NCBI RefSeq assembly: GCF_947503385.1
Contig: NZ_CANNDO010000001.1
Location: 1 to 64,000, forward strand
Length of the DNA stretch: 64,000 bases
Source: an uncultured Tateyamaria sp.
Lineage (GTDB): Bacteria; Pseudomonadota; Alphaproteobacteria; Rhodobacterales; Rhodobacteraceae
Reading direction: 5' to 3'
Shown here: one piece after another, positions 55,920 through 59,814 of the stretch
Layout of the letters: each line of letters starts with the position of its first letter
Numbering within the stretch: position 1 is the stretch's first letter
Made by a program: the position numbers and the translations under genes
The notes under the pieces: generated by a model
The model's input: only the letters and a program-made list of their open reading frames with translations
What the model was told of the DNA's origin: nothing
Databases searched by the model: none

Positions 55920-56047
55920 ATGCCCGACCCGATATGCCCCTTGTGCGACCGCCCGATCCCGGCGGACGCCCCGCAAAGCCTGCACCACCTAATCCCCAAG
56001 CTCAAAGGGGGCAAGGGCGGGCCAACCGTTCTGCTGCATCACATCTG
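55920..56047 (+). pseudogene. HNH endonuclease gene, 5' half, split by the IS1595-type element
   Basis: The first 42 codons encode MPDPICPLCDRPIPADAPQS and then LHHLIPKLKGGKGGPTVLLH, with a CPLC zinc knuckle and the HH of the HNH motif. Reading then runs into the element and stops at a TAG within 15 bases. The last eight bases (CACATCTG, 56040-56047) are the left copy of the target-site duplication. Joined to 59649-59814 the gene is open throughout (97 residues, ...LLHHICHREVHATLTEAEL...), typical of small HNH proteins of this bacterial family. Because the frame is otherwise intact, the insertion looks recent. Confidence 0.9.
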
Positions 56048-56073
56048 CGGTATTAGGTAGCAAGCGCAACACG
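56048..56073 (+). repeat. Left terminal inverted repeat of the element (26 bp)
   Basis: Begins CGGTATTAGGTAGCAAGC and continues to GCGCAACACG. It is the exact reverse complement of 59615-59640. The next base differs. Confidence 0.95.
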
Positions 56074-56077
56074 TCGG

Positions 56078-56212
56078 ATTCACATCTCAGTCACACATCA
56101 GAACAAAGCCGGATTTTCGCCGATGCGGGCTACGGCTGTGAATGTGAAAATTAACACTTGCAGCATTCACATCCTGAGTATATCTAGGCCTCAGGATAGA
56201 AGGGCTGTGAAT
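56078..56212. promoter_or_regulatory. Repeated TGTGAAT/ATTCACA motifs upstream of the element's first gene
   Basis: ATTCACA occurs at 56078-56084 and 56165-56171, TGTGAAT at 56137-56143 and 56206-56212. The inner pair forms an inverted repeat, and the last copy ends just before the ATG at 56216. The spacing suggests operator sites for a repressor, possibly one encoded by the element. A related TGTGAAAAT occurs at 56143-56151 and 57113-57121. Confidence 0.5.
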
Positions 56213-56215
56213 CCC

Positions 56216-56752
56216 ATGAGCGAGCAAAGCATCATCACACGTCGCATCGAAGAGGTGAAGGCTGAGAGCGTTCGCCTTCGCGCTAAGTTGGCTGAGAACG
56301 ACAAGGAACTTGTTGAGCTGGAAACCGCTGCAAGTGTTATTGCGCGCCTTACAGGGGCAGAACGGCCTGAGACTGTCACGTCAGACGCAACGTCTACGTC
56401 GAAAGATGCAGTACGGGCAAAAAATGCAAAGCCGGAAGGCCTGCCTACGATGCCAGAATTGATCCTCATGGCGCTTAAGCAGGAAAAGCGGGCCATGGAG
56501 CCACGTGAAATCACTGAGGTTATTCGCCGCAATTGGTGGCCCGAAGTAGACGGTCAGAAGATTGGCAGCATCGTCTGGCGACTGAATAATCGCAAAGATA
56601 TTGAAAAGGTTGAGGGTACTTCGACATATCGTCTTCCCCAAATAAAAGAGGCCTCTGACACTGAACCTGGCCGGTCGCCGTCAGAGGCCTCGCTTTTCCC
56701 TGTTCCCGAAGCGAAGGGGCTTGAAAGCCAGCCTCGGGATGGTGGGACATGA
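56216..56752 (+). CDS. Element-borne coiled-coil / winged-helix-like protein
   Basis: 178 residues. Residues 8-45 are a charged coiled coil (RRIEEVKAESVRLRAKLAEN). After a polar linker, residues about 85-150 form a probable winged helix (PTMPELILMALKQEKRAMEP, then REITEVIRRNWWPEVDGQK, IGSIVWRLNNRKDIEKVEG). The tail is Pro/Ser-rich. The pattern of a start-end helix plus wing suggests DNA binding of the HARE/HTH type, as a regulator of the element or a host-interacting factor. No exact family is recognised. The ATG at 56216 lies behind AGAAGGG at rather long spacing. Confidence 0.7.
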   Translation: MSEQSIITRRIEEVKAESVRLRAKLAENDKELVELETAASVIARLTGAERPETVTSDATSTSKDAVRAKNAKPEGLPTMPELILMALKQEKRAMEPREITEVIRRNWWPEVDGQKIGSIVWRLNNRKDIEKVEGTSTYRLPQIKEASDTEPGRSPSEASLFPVPEAKGLESQPRDGGT

Positions 56753-56777
56753 GGAGGTAGTTAACCCTCTCTCATGG

Positions 56778-56849
56778 GGGCCGGGAAGTGGTTTCCGTTG
56801 CCGGGTTTGCACCGAGTGACGCGGGGTCCGACTCCCCGTCGGTCCACCA
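56778..56849 (+). other. tRNA-like sequence with T-arm, 3' acceptor strand and CCA (probably a tRNA fragment)
   Basis: The last 28 bases read like a tRNA 3' end: a T-stem CGGGG / CCCCG with loop TCCGACT, then TCGGTCC, A and CCA at 56847-56849. A 5' segment GGGCCGG at 56778 can pair with TCGGTCC (with G-U pairs), making 72 bases in all. The D-arm and anticodon arm do not fold convincingly, so a working tRNA is unlikely. A captured tRNA 3' end or a chance likeness are alternatives. The same stretch is open in one frame (ATG 56774 to TAG 56896, 40 codons) without a well-placed ribosome site. Confidence 0.4.
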
Positions 56850-56882
56850 TTGAGTTAGCAATACCTGGCATATATGTCAATA

Positions 56883-56908
56883 GAATCAGGGTTTAGTCAC
56901 CCTGATTC
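56883..56908 (-). terminator. Hairpin at the stop of the XRE regulator gene
   Basis: A perfect 10-bp stem (GAATCAGGGT 56883-56892 / ACCCTGATTC 56899-56908) straddles the regulator's stop codon. No long T-run follows, so strength is uncertain. Confidence 0.6.
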
Positions 56909-57098
56909 CGCTTGTTGTGAACTCAATCCCATGATCCGTAAGCGCCTTCTCCATTGCTGCCATGTTATTGCCAATGGGAATGCGCCTTCCTTTCTCAAAG
57001 TCGCGAACGGTAGAAAGCGAAACGCCTGAGCGTTCCGCTAGTGTTCTTTGCGGCCAATCCAGCCAGCCGCGCGCCGCACGTGATTGTTCTGGTGTCAT
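56886..57098 (-). CDS. Small XRE-family transcriptional regulator of the element
   Basis: 70 residues, a single helix-turn-helix: MTPEQSRAARGWLDWPQRTL then AERSGVSLSTVRDFEKGRRI, with recognition helix SLSTVRDFEKG. It is divergent from the transposase and probably represses it. The ATG at 57098 has no ribosome site. A TTGACA (-35) and TACATA (-10) with 17-bp spacing lie so close upstream that transcription would start near the ATG, so the mRNA may be leaderless. The longer frame to 57158 is less likely. Confidence 0.82.
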   Translation of the reverse strand: MTPEQSRAARGWLDWPQRTLAERSGVSLSTVRDFEKGRRIPIGNNMAAMEKALTDHGIEFTTSGIRVTKP

Positions 57099-57134
57099 AC
57101 AGTCTATGTAAGTGTGAAAATAAAATGTGTCAAC

Positions 57135-57193
57135 GTCAACGAAAAGTGTTGAACTCACTCATTTCAATACATATGTGTAATGTCAACGAAAAG
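57135..57193. promoter_or_regulatory. Direct repeats between the XRE regulator and the transposase
   Basis: The 12-mer GTCAACGAAAAG occurs at 57135-57146 and 57182-57193, 47 bp apart. Each is followed two bases later by TTG. A small palindrome ACATATGT lies between (57169-57176). These flank the divergent promoters and look like operators of the XRE regulator. Confidence 0.6.
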
Positions 57194-57200
57194 CATTGGC

Positions 57201-58169
57201 ATGACACAACACTTTCTCATATCCTCGCAAGCGCGCACGCTTTCACTGGCCAAAGTGGCCAGAATGAGCGACGACGAGGCGTATGATGCGTTTTGCCGCC
57301 TTCGTTGGGTTGAAACAGATGGCGAGCCAGCATGCCCCCGTTGTGGCTGCGTCGGAGCCTACAACATGCGGACGCGCAAGAAGTTCAAGTGCAAGACACG
57401 TGAATGCCAGCATCAGTTTTCGGTCACTTCTGGCACGATCTTTGCCAGCCGTAAACTTCCGGTTCGCGACTACCTTCTTGCTATCGCGATTTTTGTGAAC
57501 GGAGCGAAGGGATACGCCGCCCTCCAACTGAGCCGTGATTTAGACGTGCAGTACAAAACCGCTTTCGTACTTGCCCATAAAATTCGAGAAGCCATTGGCG
57601 CGGCTCAATCAGACAACTCGCCGCTGGATGGTGAAGTTGAAGTAGATGGTGCGTACTTCGGGGGCCACATCCGCCCCAAAAACGAAGCGAAGGATCGGAT
57701 CGACCGACGACGCAACAAGTATCAGACGGGGAAGCGGCGAGTTGTCGTGGTTGCTCGCGAGCGTCGGGGGCGCACTCTGACTTTCGTTCACAAAGCCGAA
57801 GGCGAGGGGGTTGCCAGCATCAACAGATGTGTTGCCACGTCAGCCACTATTCATGCTGATGAGGCGAGCCATTGGGACGCGCTCCACATGCGTTATCTGA
57901 CAAAACGCATCAATCACAAGCGCGCATATTCGACCGATGATAGCAACACCAATCAAGCGGAAAGCTTCTTTTCCCGCCTGCGGCGCGCAGAGGTCGGTAC
58001 CCATCACCATATCTCGGGGCAATATCTGGATGCCTACGCACTTGAAATGGCGTGGCGTGAAGATAATCGCCGGATCAGCAATGGTGAGCAGTTTTTGGCC
58101 GCTACCAATGCCGCTCTGGAGCACCCAGTCAGCCGTCGTTGGAAGGGATATTGGCAGCGAGCCACTTAG
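57201..58169 (+). CDS. IS1595-family (ISXO2-like) transposase
   Basis: 322 residues. The N-terminus MTQHFLISSQARTLSLAKVA is typical. A zinc ribbon follows (CPRCGCVGAYNM...CKTRECQHQFSVTSG), then the conserved FASRKLPVRDYLLAIAIFVN and LSRDLDVQYKTAFVLAHKIR. The catalytic domain shows VEVDGAYFGGHIRP (first Asp), TIHADEASHWDAL (second Asp), and TNQAESFFSRLRRAEVG. The length is normal and no break is seen, so it is probably active. The ATG at 57201 matches family N-termini better than ATG 57180. The stop overlaps the convergent cargo gene by four bases. Confidence 0.93.
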   Translation: MTQHFLISSQARTLSLAKVARMSDDEAYDAFCRLRWVETDGEPACPRCGCVGAYNMRTRKKFKCKTRECQHQFSVTSGTIFASRKLPVRDYLLAIAIFVNGAKGYAALQLSRDLDVQYKTAFVLAHKIREAIGAAQSDNSPLDGEVEVDGAYFGGHIRPKNEAKDRIDRRRNKYQTGKRRVVVVARERRGRTLTFVHKAEGEGVASINRCVATSATIHADEASHWDALHMRYLTKRINHKRAYSTDDSNTNQAESFFSRLRRAEVGTHHHISGQYLDAYALEMAWREDNRRISNGEQFLAATNAALEHPVSRRWKGYWQRAT

Positions 58170-58570
58170 GCCGCTTCGCTGAAATCCACTTTCAAGTGGC
58201 GGTCTTGCGCGGTTGCCTTCGTGTAGGAAAACGCAAGTTGGATCGCAGCGGCCATTGTGGACGCCGGGTCAATCTTAACAAGCCGATTCACAATATCAGA
58301 CAGCTCAACGACGCCCTCTTGCGGCAAGCCCGCCCGTTCAAGCAAGAACTTGATCCCTTTGATTGTAAAACCAACGTACAGAGGCTCTCCGTCATGGCCA
58401 AAATCATTGTTCTGATGGAGCGTAACGGCTCCATTAAAACGCACCTCAGTTACGCTACAGTCGCGCGTGAAGACACGGATGGAATCCATATGCTTGTCAA
58501 AATATGCGATGGGCTGGAACGACTCAAATTCCAGCCCGACAAGGTCATCGGCGTAATATCTATCAGTCAC
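58166..58570 (-). CDS. Element cargo protein 1, unknown function
   Basis: 134 residues, last gene of the leftward cargo operon. The N-terminal half looks strand-rich (RYYADDLVGLEFESFQPIAY, RVFTRDCSVTEVRFNGAVTL). The C-terminal half is helical (GVVELSDIVNRLVKIDPAST). There is no signal peptide or membrane segment. The GTG start at 58570 has GGGAGAG five bases upstream, a strong ribosome site that supports a real gene. I recognise no family. Confidence 0.7.
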   Translation of the reverse strand: MTDRYYADDLVGLEFESFQPIAYFDKHMDSIRVFTRDCSVTEVRFNGAVTLHQNNDFGHDGEPLYVGFTIKGIKFLLERAGLPQEGVVELSDIVNRLVKIDPASTMAAAIQLAFSYTKATAQDRHLKVDFSEAA

Positions 58571-58594
58571 TTTTCTCTCCCGGCTGCTCGTCTT

Positions 58595-59176
58595 TTATTG
58601 ATTTTTTGTCCACACACAAGGCGTGTCGTATCTCTCCATGTAGTCTAGCGGCATTTCGGGATCGTCGGGGCTGGCTGCTATCCAGGTCCAGTGCTCAATC
58701 CACATATCTACCTCTGGAAACTCGCCTTCCATCTTGTTTGGCGACAAGTATATAGCAAAAACCCTACCAGATGGTGCAGAAATGCGTTCGACCTCGCCTT
58801 TTTCTATGCTTCCGCCGAAGCGGGCATCATGCTTTGGATTCAGGATCAACGCAAACTTATCGAGATGCGCTTCGTTGTTGCCATTGACCAGCATCGGGCG
58901 TTTCAGTCCACGATGGGCGGAGGTTGCAAAAATGGCGCCGGTTGAGATCACCCCAAACAACTGACCAAACTGAACCCGGAAGCCACGCGAAATGCGCCTC
59001 TGCATTTTTTCGGAAGTTATTGCAATCTTGAGAACTTCTTTTGCGTGAAGTTTGGAAAAGTCTTCACAGTTTTTCAGGAAGTTAGGGGCATCCGTAACGC
59101 GATAACCGCCCATCTGATTGTAATGATAATCCACATGACCTCCGCACAAAATTACCGGCTTTTGTGAAATTTTCAT
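58595..59176 (-). CDS. Element cargo protein 2, unknown function
   Basis: 193 residues, middle gene of the cargo operon. It begins MKISQKPVILCGGHVDYHYN and contains GRVFAIYLSPNKMEGEFPEV and DMWIEHWTWIAASPDDPEMP near the C-terminus. It is aromatic and His-rich, with no membrane segment. Many His, Asp and Glu might bind metal, but no known motif is clear. The ATG at 59176 is seven bases after the preceding stop, which suggests coupling; a TTG at 59236 would overlap that gene. No family recognised. Confidence 0.68.
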   Translation of the reverse strand: MKISQKPVILCGGHVDYHYNQMGGYRVTDAPNFLKNCEDFSKLHAKEVLKIAITSEKMQRRISRGFRVQFGQLFGVISTGAIFATSAHRGLKRPMLVNGNNEAHLDKFALILNPKHDARFGGSIEKGEVERISAPSGRVFAIYLSPNKMEGEFPEVDMWIEHWTWIAASPDDPEMPLDYMERYDTPCVWTKNQ

Positions 59177-59183
59177 TTGAGTG

Positions 59184-59582
59184 TCAAGCCGAATTAGTCG
59201 GAATGCTCGCCTCCCAGTGCTGTCGTATATTTGCAACCAAGCCTTGTCGCTTAAGCCCCCAAAGGCAGATATAAACCCTTTTGTAGACCCGCTTGTATTC
59301 TATGTTGGTCTTTTGTGCGTTTACGGCGCGCGCAATCTCAGCGCCCGTTTTTGGCCCACCCCTGAGCGCTTCCAGCACCATCCGCCGCAACTCGCCTTTG
59401 GCAAAGTCTTTTGGTGTCTTGCGGGGCATATTGAGCGCCATGGGTTCCGCACCATACATCCGCAACAAAGCGTCTACGTGTTCTAGGCCCTCCTGATCCT
59501 CGCGCACCATCTCCTGTCGAACGTAGTGCAGGGTATCAATTACGGTCTTAGGTTTGAGCGGGCGGAAATATCTGCGGGTCAT
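59184..59582 (-). CDS. Element cargo protein 3, HTH-like, unknown function
   Basis: 132 residues, first gene of the cargo operon, starting 33 bases inside the right terminal repeat. The C-terminal half looks like a helix-turn-helix or winged helix (KGELRRMVLEALRGGPKTGA, then EIARAVNAQKTNIEYKRVYK). The N-terminal half is charged and helical (YVRQEMVREDQEGLEHVDAL). It may regulate the operon from the right end. No family is assigned. Confidence 0.7.
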   Translation of the reverse strand: MTRRYFRPLKPKTVIDTLHYVRQEMVREDQEGLEHVDALLRMYGAEPMALNMPRKTPKDFAKGELRRMVLEALRGGPKTGAEIARAVNAQKTNIEYKRVYKRVYICLWGLKRQGLVANIRQHWEASIPTNSA

Positions 59583-59614
59583 GGGGATTCAATACAGGAA
59601 TCCAACATGTTATG

Positions 59615-59640
59615 CGTGTTGCGCTTGCTACCTAATACCG
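59615..59640 (-). repeat. Right terminal inverted repeat of the element (26 bp)
   Basis: Exact reverse complement of 56048-56073, ending GCTACCTAATACCG, next to the right copy of the 8-bp target duplication (59641-59648). Confidence 0.95.
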
Positions 59641-59814
59641 CACATCTGCCATCGCGAGGTTCACGCGACGCTGACCGAGGCGGAACTGGCGCGCGACTAC
59701 GCCACGCCAGAGGCGTTGCGGGCCCATCCGCGGCTGTCCAAATTCTTTGCTTGGGTGGCGAAACGCCCGCCGGGCTTTTTGTCAAAGGTCCCGGGTGGGC
59801 GGCGCAAGCGGTAG
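59641..59814 (+). pseudogene. HNH endonuclease gene, 3' half
   Basis: The second half of the split HNH gene: after the duplicated CACATCTG it continues HREVHATLTEAELARDYATP and ends LSKVPGGRRKR with a TAG stop at 59812. It carries the last His of the HNH motif (ICHREVH). Alone it lacks a start codon and the zinc knuckle, so both halves are presumed non-functional while the element is in place. Precise excision would restore the gene. Confidence 0.9.

Follow-up and report, generated by a model that had tools for sequence, protein, structure and literature searches.

The stretch of DNA considered here (the window) consists of positions 1 to 64,000 of contig NZ_CANNDO010000001.1, from an uncultured Tateyamaria sp. 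(assembly GCF_947503385.1). It contains an intact transposon of the IS1595 family, which is widespread in bacteria; it is 3,593 bp long (56048-59640), which carries a transposase and five further genes and splits an HNH gene. Comparison of this element with its relatives revealed a statistical association: the insertion site tracks the subtype of a small gene at the right end, open reading frame 6 (ORF6), and not the transposase. Because ORF6 subtype and insertion site go together, ORF6 probably selects the insertion target of a transposon that appears to be built from exchangeable modules. With less assurance, we also lean towards a broader view, that of a compact IS1595 group having its own class of small winged-helix-like selectors, swapped between different transposases and each aimed at one conserved host sequence. 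The features that define the insertion are the following (window coordinates, strand where applicable, and basis).

55920..56047, + strand: HNH gene, 5' part with the first duplication copy (frame; similarity to unsplit homologues in 15 of 19 genomes of the genus)
56040..56047: target duplication, left copy, 8 bp, CACATCTG (sequence)
56048..56073, + strand: left terminal inverted repeat, 26 bp, perfect (sequence)
59184..59582, - strand: ORF6, 132 amino acids (aa), winged-helix-like, proposed target selector (adjoins the right end; site association)
59615..59640, - strand: right terminal inverted repeat, 26 bp, perfect (sequence)
59641..59648: target duplication, right copy, 8 bp, CACATCTG (sequence)
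59649..59814, + strand: HNH gene, 3' part (frame; match to one-piece homologues)

Removal of the element and one duplication copy restores an HNH frame of 97 codons. Among the 19 other same-genus genomes, this gene is unsplit in 15, split in one (G409) and without a match in three (G-numbers designate genomes and L-numbers surveyed loci or elements). The insertion point lies in the HH^ICH codons of this conserved gene, which is not a random victim, since the same codon is entered by four other elements: L149, L024, L030 and L271 (left junction only). A preliminary description, made from the letters of the window, had reported the perfect 26-bp inverted ends, the 8-bp duplication and the rebuilt HNH frame, all of which were found again here. 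It had also noted an intact transposase with five more genes, and this was borne out by complete DDE and zinc-ribbon domains and conserved catalytic residues. Its view of an IS1595-type, cargo-carrying and probably self-regulated element was judged right.

Relatives were collected by several searches. At the DNA level, 22 of 295 host-family genomes (host included) gave matches, mostly to the transposase. With a degenerate end pattern, ends were found in 37 of 394 family genomes, host included, and with the reversed control pattern in none; in a genome contig collection the pattern gave at least 120 stretches, of which 80 were kept, mostly from Alphaproteobacteria judging by record titles. The window's own end, used as a 23-base pattern, had no match in that collection, where records close to the host may be absent. 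The 124 loci examined yielded 34 end pairs flanked by an 8-bp duplication (two of them with one mismatch), that of the window included, so the boundaries of the window element are not due to chance. Two pairs were dropped: L123, which is L038 again, and L147, of 996 bp and with an imperfect duplication. This left 32 mapped elements, window included, spanning 1.5 to 4.8 kb. All 32 have a transposase match, in L051 to a remnant only. ORF6 is present in 30 (exceptions L054 and L061), and a DUF6471 regulator likewise in 30 (exceptions the window element and L051); the remaining genes differ between elements. The gene order is left cargo, a DUF6471 or XRE regulator divergent from the transposase, the transposase itself, right cargo, and an inward-reading ORF6 at the right end.

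Insertion sites were compared over 71 distinct right ends, each with an ORF6 and 38 of them paired; L271, L277 and L280-L298 stand outside the statistics. A flank identity of at least 60% over 30 bp joined 72 pairs of right ends, and shifted flanks gave 0.5. The pair L056/L071 (60% flank identity) was set aside as chance, the two ORF6 being unrelated. Altogether 35 of the 71 right ends sort into seven shared-site groups.

AAATATC-type extragenic repeats: 17 ends
comM site a: 5 ends
HNH codons: 4 ends (window, L149, L024, L030)
Upstream of ruvC: 3 ends, one joined only via the junction of the L037 tandem
comM site b: 2 ends (L028, L246), just after the LFLDE codons
DNA methylase: 2 ends
upp stop codon: 2 ends (L115, L241), in opposite orientations

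Target genes were named by Pfam matches on flank pieces (Mg_chelatase, RuvC, UPRTase, N6_N4_Mtase), the second methylase piece being unmatched. The Mg_chelatase target is ComM. This name agrees with that used in PMC10293859. Insertions at the gene sites fall on the same base, and both orientations are present at five of them (HNH, comM a, comM b, methylase and upp), so that they represent separate insertions. The duplication at upp takes in the stop codon and thereby leaves the gene whole. The host genome contains seven copies of one form of the AAATATC repeat and none of its control.

In the ORF6 tree, six of the seven site groups each draw on a single branch. Only the HNH group departs from this, since L030 has an ORF6 placed beside those of the methylase site. 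The main statistics were computed on 52 of the 71 right ends, those with a transposase match over 200 residues. The area under the receiver operating characteristic curve (AUC) for sharing a site was 0.907 for ORF6 versus 0.633 for the transposase. In partial Mantel tests, site was related to ORF6 given the transposase (r=-0.35, p=0.0005), and not detectably to the transposase given ORF6 (r=-0.04, p=0.25). A control with the DUF6471 regulator used the 44 elements that also have this gene, and the window element is therefore outside it; AUC values were 0.900 for ORF6, 0.653 for the transposase and 0.614 for DUF6471, with partial p values of 0.001, 0.23 and 0.09, respectively. Within the host family alone (27 elements), the AUC was 0.859 for ORF6 versus 0.498 for the transposase. 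As candidate determinants of the site, the transposase (AUC 0.63-0.65), DUF6471 (0.61) and the end sequence (0.68) were weaker and were rejected.

Individual cases follow the same trend. The window element and L149 occupy one HNH site in opposite orientations, with transposases 58% and ORF6 67% identical. L028 and L246 likewise share a site in opposite orientations, at tree distances of 1.56 for the transposase and 0.70 for ORF6. Over the HNH site as a whole, the transposase of the window element is about 57% identical to those of the other elements, and its ORF6 44-73%. In G409, of the same genus, L271 is a different element at the window's HNH codon, with an ORF6 73% and a transposase 57% identical, and with other cargo. 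The right junction of L271 lacks the second duplication and sits at a neighbouring site of the HNH gene, used by L102; L271 resembles a hybrid between two insertions.

Full-length ORF6 proteins are mostly about 110-160 aa long, and the two ORF6 branches are homologous according to hhalign (98.5%; the second alignment also included ORF1 and a similar L028 protein). A number of observations count against ORF6 as a site-selecting winged-helix protein. The match of the first branch to a PadR-type winged helix in PDB is weak (E=0.02), as are the Pfam winged-helix matches of ORF6 (E 0.04-0.08). L030 is at the HNH site, yet its ORF6 is only 44% identical to that of the window and groups with methylase-site proteins. 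No site is common to the ten ends of the ORF6 clade that includes L035 and L121; the ORF6 of L069 is 85-89% like those of the comM type and its site differs; the ORF6 of L127 and L044 are 70% alike and their sites differ. The MQDK-type branch (28) is made up of 17 members of the repeat group, three near ruvC and eight elsewhere. Nearest neighbours by ORF6 agree on the site for 19 of the 28 site-sharing elements, and nearest neighbours by transposase for nine. Finally, the repeat sites are AT-rich and loosely defined, and exclusion of this group leaves 10 pairs among 35 elements, with an AUC of 0.875.

Other explanations of the association were weighed. The transposase itself might pick the sites, ORF6 merely co-varying with it. 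ORF6 and transposase distances do correlate (r=0.29), and simple IS1595 elements are generally known to carry a transposase alone. However, the transposase adds nothing detectable once ORF6 is given (p=0.25 and p=0.23 in the two data sets), its AUC falls to 0.498 inside one host family, and the window element, L149 and L271 are at one site with transposases 57-58% identical. We regard this explanation as improbable.

The presence of opposite orientations at five gene sites speaks against another, unlikely, possibility, in which insertion falls on ordinary hot spots while ORF6, next to the flank, travels with the site by homologous recombination. Such exchange would fit the position of ORF6, which adjoins the right flank, the alignment of the window element with L271 across the right end and flank, and the occurrence at the HNH site of L030, with an ORF6 from another branch. 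But the two ends of the window element are of one type (CGGTATTAGG), unlike the ends of the other HNH-site elements, and its duplication is perfect, so that a gain of ORF6 by flank recombination is unlikely. ORF6 could also be a transposon regulator or immunity factor, its link to the site reflecting host or lineage history. A winged-helix-like, near-constant protein encoded at an end would suit this role; the association holds, however, inside a single host family, and insertions at gene sites are at the identical base. We give very little weight to this last reading.

Target selection by ORF6, the preferred reading, could operate as follows. The DDE transposase would cut and join the 26-bp ends, whose anatomy is directly visible, and the divergent helix-turn-helix gene would repress it via the repeats between both start codons. 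ORF6 would bind a particular conserved host sequence and recruit the transposase there, the target of the window element being the HH^ICH codons; this would account for the HNH gene as the victim here. ORF1, ORF4 and ORF5 would be passengers, possibly defence- or addiction-like, as the cargo of relatives faintly hints.

Passenger-carrying IS1595 elements (tIS) have been described: MTnSag1 and tISCpe8 belong to this family, according to the part of PMC5704250 available. As in the window element, they have extra genes between their ends and the same transposase family. Unlike it, they are resistance or mobilisable elements, and no target-selecting gene is described for them in that part of the source (PMC5704250). 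No IS1595 member is among the elements captured in Paracoccus, as far as the accessible text of PMC3281130 goes. In the literature searched, coverage of which was incomplete, no published account of site selection in IS1595 elements was found.

Element-encoded site choice is best known from Tn7-like elements. These transposons (TnsD/TniQ, TnsF) combine a DDE transposase, an exchangeable site-fixing protein and varied cargo, and the group of the window element would be alike if the proposal for ORF6 holds. In the proteins of the window element, no Pfam match to TnsA, TnsB, TnsC or TniQ was found (E<=1), nor was a TniQ/TnsD-type match found in the three ORF6 proteins scanned (a scan that left TnsF aside). 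The window element differs from Tn7-like elements, which duplicate 5 bp of target DNA, by its single transposase gene, its 8-bp duplication, a group size of 1.5 to 4.8 kb and the short ORF6 (mostly about 110-160 aa when full-length). It is not a Tn7-like element, although it may work like one. Tn6022, which is Tn7-like, targets comM at the Walker B motif through TnsF, according to the available part of PMC10293859; comM is also targeted here, by L028 and L246, which enter just after the LFLDE codons. In our own reading these codons are the Walker B motif. A survey of Tn7-like cargo lists, in its accessible part, ImmA, toxin-antitoxin and dCTPase types (PMC8649781), which resemble the cargo found in relatives of the window element.

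If the proposal is true, these elements, mostly smaller than 4 kb, would form a re-targetable system of protein-guided transposition that is not described in the literature searched. A second, far smaller system with the same solution, and once with the same comM region, would show how simple insertion sequences acquire site specificity. It would also supply compact natural selector/target pairs for the study of protein-guided integration.

The transposase and the regulatory region are made up of the following features.

57201..58169, + strand: IS1595-family DDE transposase (domain matches; frame opens at 57180, start at 57201 deduced from relatives)
56886..57098, - strand: XRE (HTH_3) regulator (HTH_3, E=8.3e-8; frame open up to 57158; position)
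57132..57151: direct repeat copy 1, 20 bp, candidate operator between xre and transposase (repeat in sequence)
57179..57198: direct repeat copy 2, 20 bp, candidate operator (repeat in sequence)

The transposase matches DDE_Tnp_IS1595 (E=2.7e-42) and Zn_ribbon_IS1595 (E=2.5e-11). In 52 aligned sequences, D156 and D227 are conserved in all and E261 in 51; we take these residues to be the catalytic triad. A target duplication of 8 bp is a trait of the IS1595 family, and the element belongs to this family by every feature tested (domains, triad, inverted repeats and duplication). Its XRE gene stands where relatives carry DUF6471. The two 20-bp direct repeats lie between the start codons of xre and the transposase and are possible operators.

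The remaining genes, and a structure proposed earlier, are these.

56216..56752, + strand: ORF1, 178 aa, coiled coil and possible winged helix, cargo (homologues, profile scans)
58166..58570, - strand: ORF4, 134 aa, right-slot cargo (no family match)
58595..59176, - strand: ORF5, right-slot cargo (likely start 59176, frame open to 59236; no family match)
56778..56849, + strand: tRNA-like cloverleaf of the preliminary description (fold; identity as a tRNA not supported)

The preliminary description had treated the accompanying genes as unrecognised cargo. This stands for ORF1, ORF4 and ORF5, but not for ORF6, a core gene present in 30 of 32 elements, nor for the XRE gene, which occupies the DUF6471 slot. 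It had looked to several complete copies at different sites as the mark of a distinct element; such copies exist for the element group but were not found with this exact cargo (end pattern unmatched, ORF5 in one of 295 genomes). That one family genome is the host itself, the other 294 being without ORF5 (ORF4 was not searched in genomes). ORF4 and ORF5 gave no meaningful family score in Pfam, NCBIfam, PHROGs or PADLOC and no match among plasmids, and none of the three cargo proteins matched a PADLOC anti-phage defence model (E<=0.01).

Homologues of ORF1 were found in G111 (37%), in another IS1595 element of the host genome (28%) and on two rhizobial plasmids (28-31%). On a Sinorhizobium meliloti plasmid (L279:1-4309), an ORF1 homologue adjoins five genes annotated with TIR domains, which suggests a defence-related setting for this protein family. 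The host copy is right-slot cargo of a related element without matching duplication on contig 2 (L277:3579-6467). ORF1 as a second ORF6 was considered and rejected (profile comparison, 8.6% probability, E=0.0039).

Cargo of relatives includes Peptidase_M78/ImmA, KilA-N with BstA similarity, Panacea, an SDH-type protease, a dCTP deaminase-like protein, and a DUF4258 protein with a helix-turn-helix (HTH) protein that is weakly MqsA-like. In a Pfam scan of relatives' proteins, 10 of 20 had no match at E<=0.01. The commonest cargo, in the left slot of 15 of the 32 elements (L032, L034, L037, L038, L101 and others), consists of proteins of about 250-350 aa encoded just 3' of DUF6471; the scanned members, from L032 and L101, are unmatched in Pfam and, by eye, have a hydrophobic stretch at the N-terminus.

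The tRNA-like end of the preliminary description did not hold up. Positions 56778-56849 do fold into a cloverleaf with a 3' CCA end, with a fold z-score of -0.99 relative to shuffles. ARAGORN detected no tRNA there, and the tRNA model RF00005 gave none at E<=10 in a search of the host genome. The best Rfam match, mascRNA (E=0.039), scored 25.7 bits where the threshold is 42.5. No combination of T-arm and CCA was found downstream of the four ORF1 homologues examined, and plasmid and phage searches gave no support. The segment is perhaps a terminator-like hairpin cluster.

Besides the window element, the host genome contains two more elements, on contig 5 (L035) and contig 2 (L277). Upstream of ruvC, L037 (1-5578) is a tandem of two related elements with a common 8-bp sequence between them. 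L051 (1439-2986) is a 1.5-kb derivative that retains ends, duplication and ORF6, with only a remnant of the transposase. Two of its genes are related to the HTH/DUF4258 pair of L031, and it possibly moved in trans.

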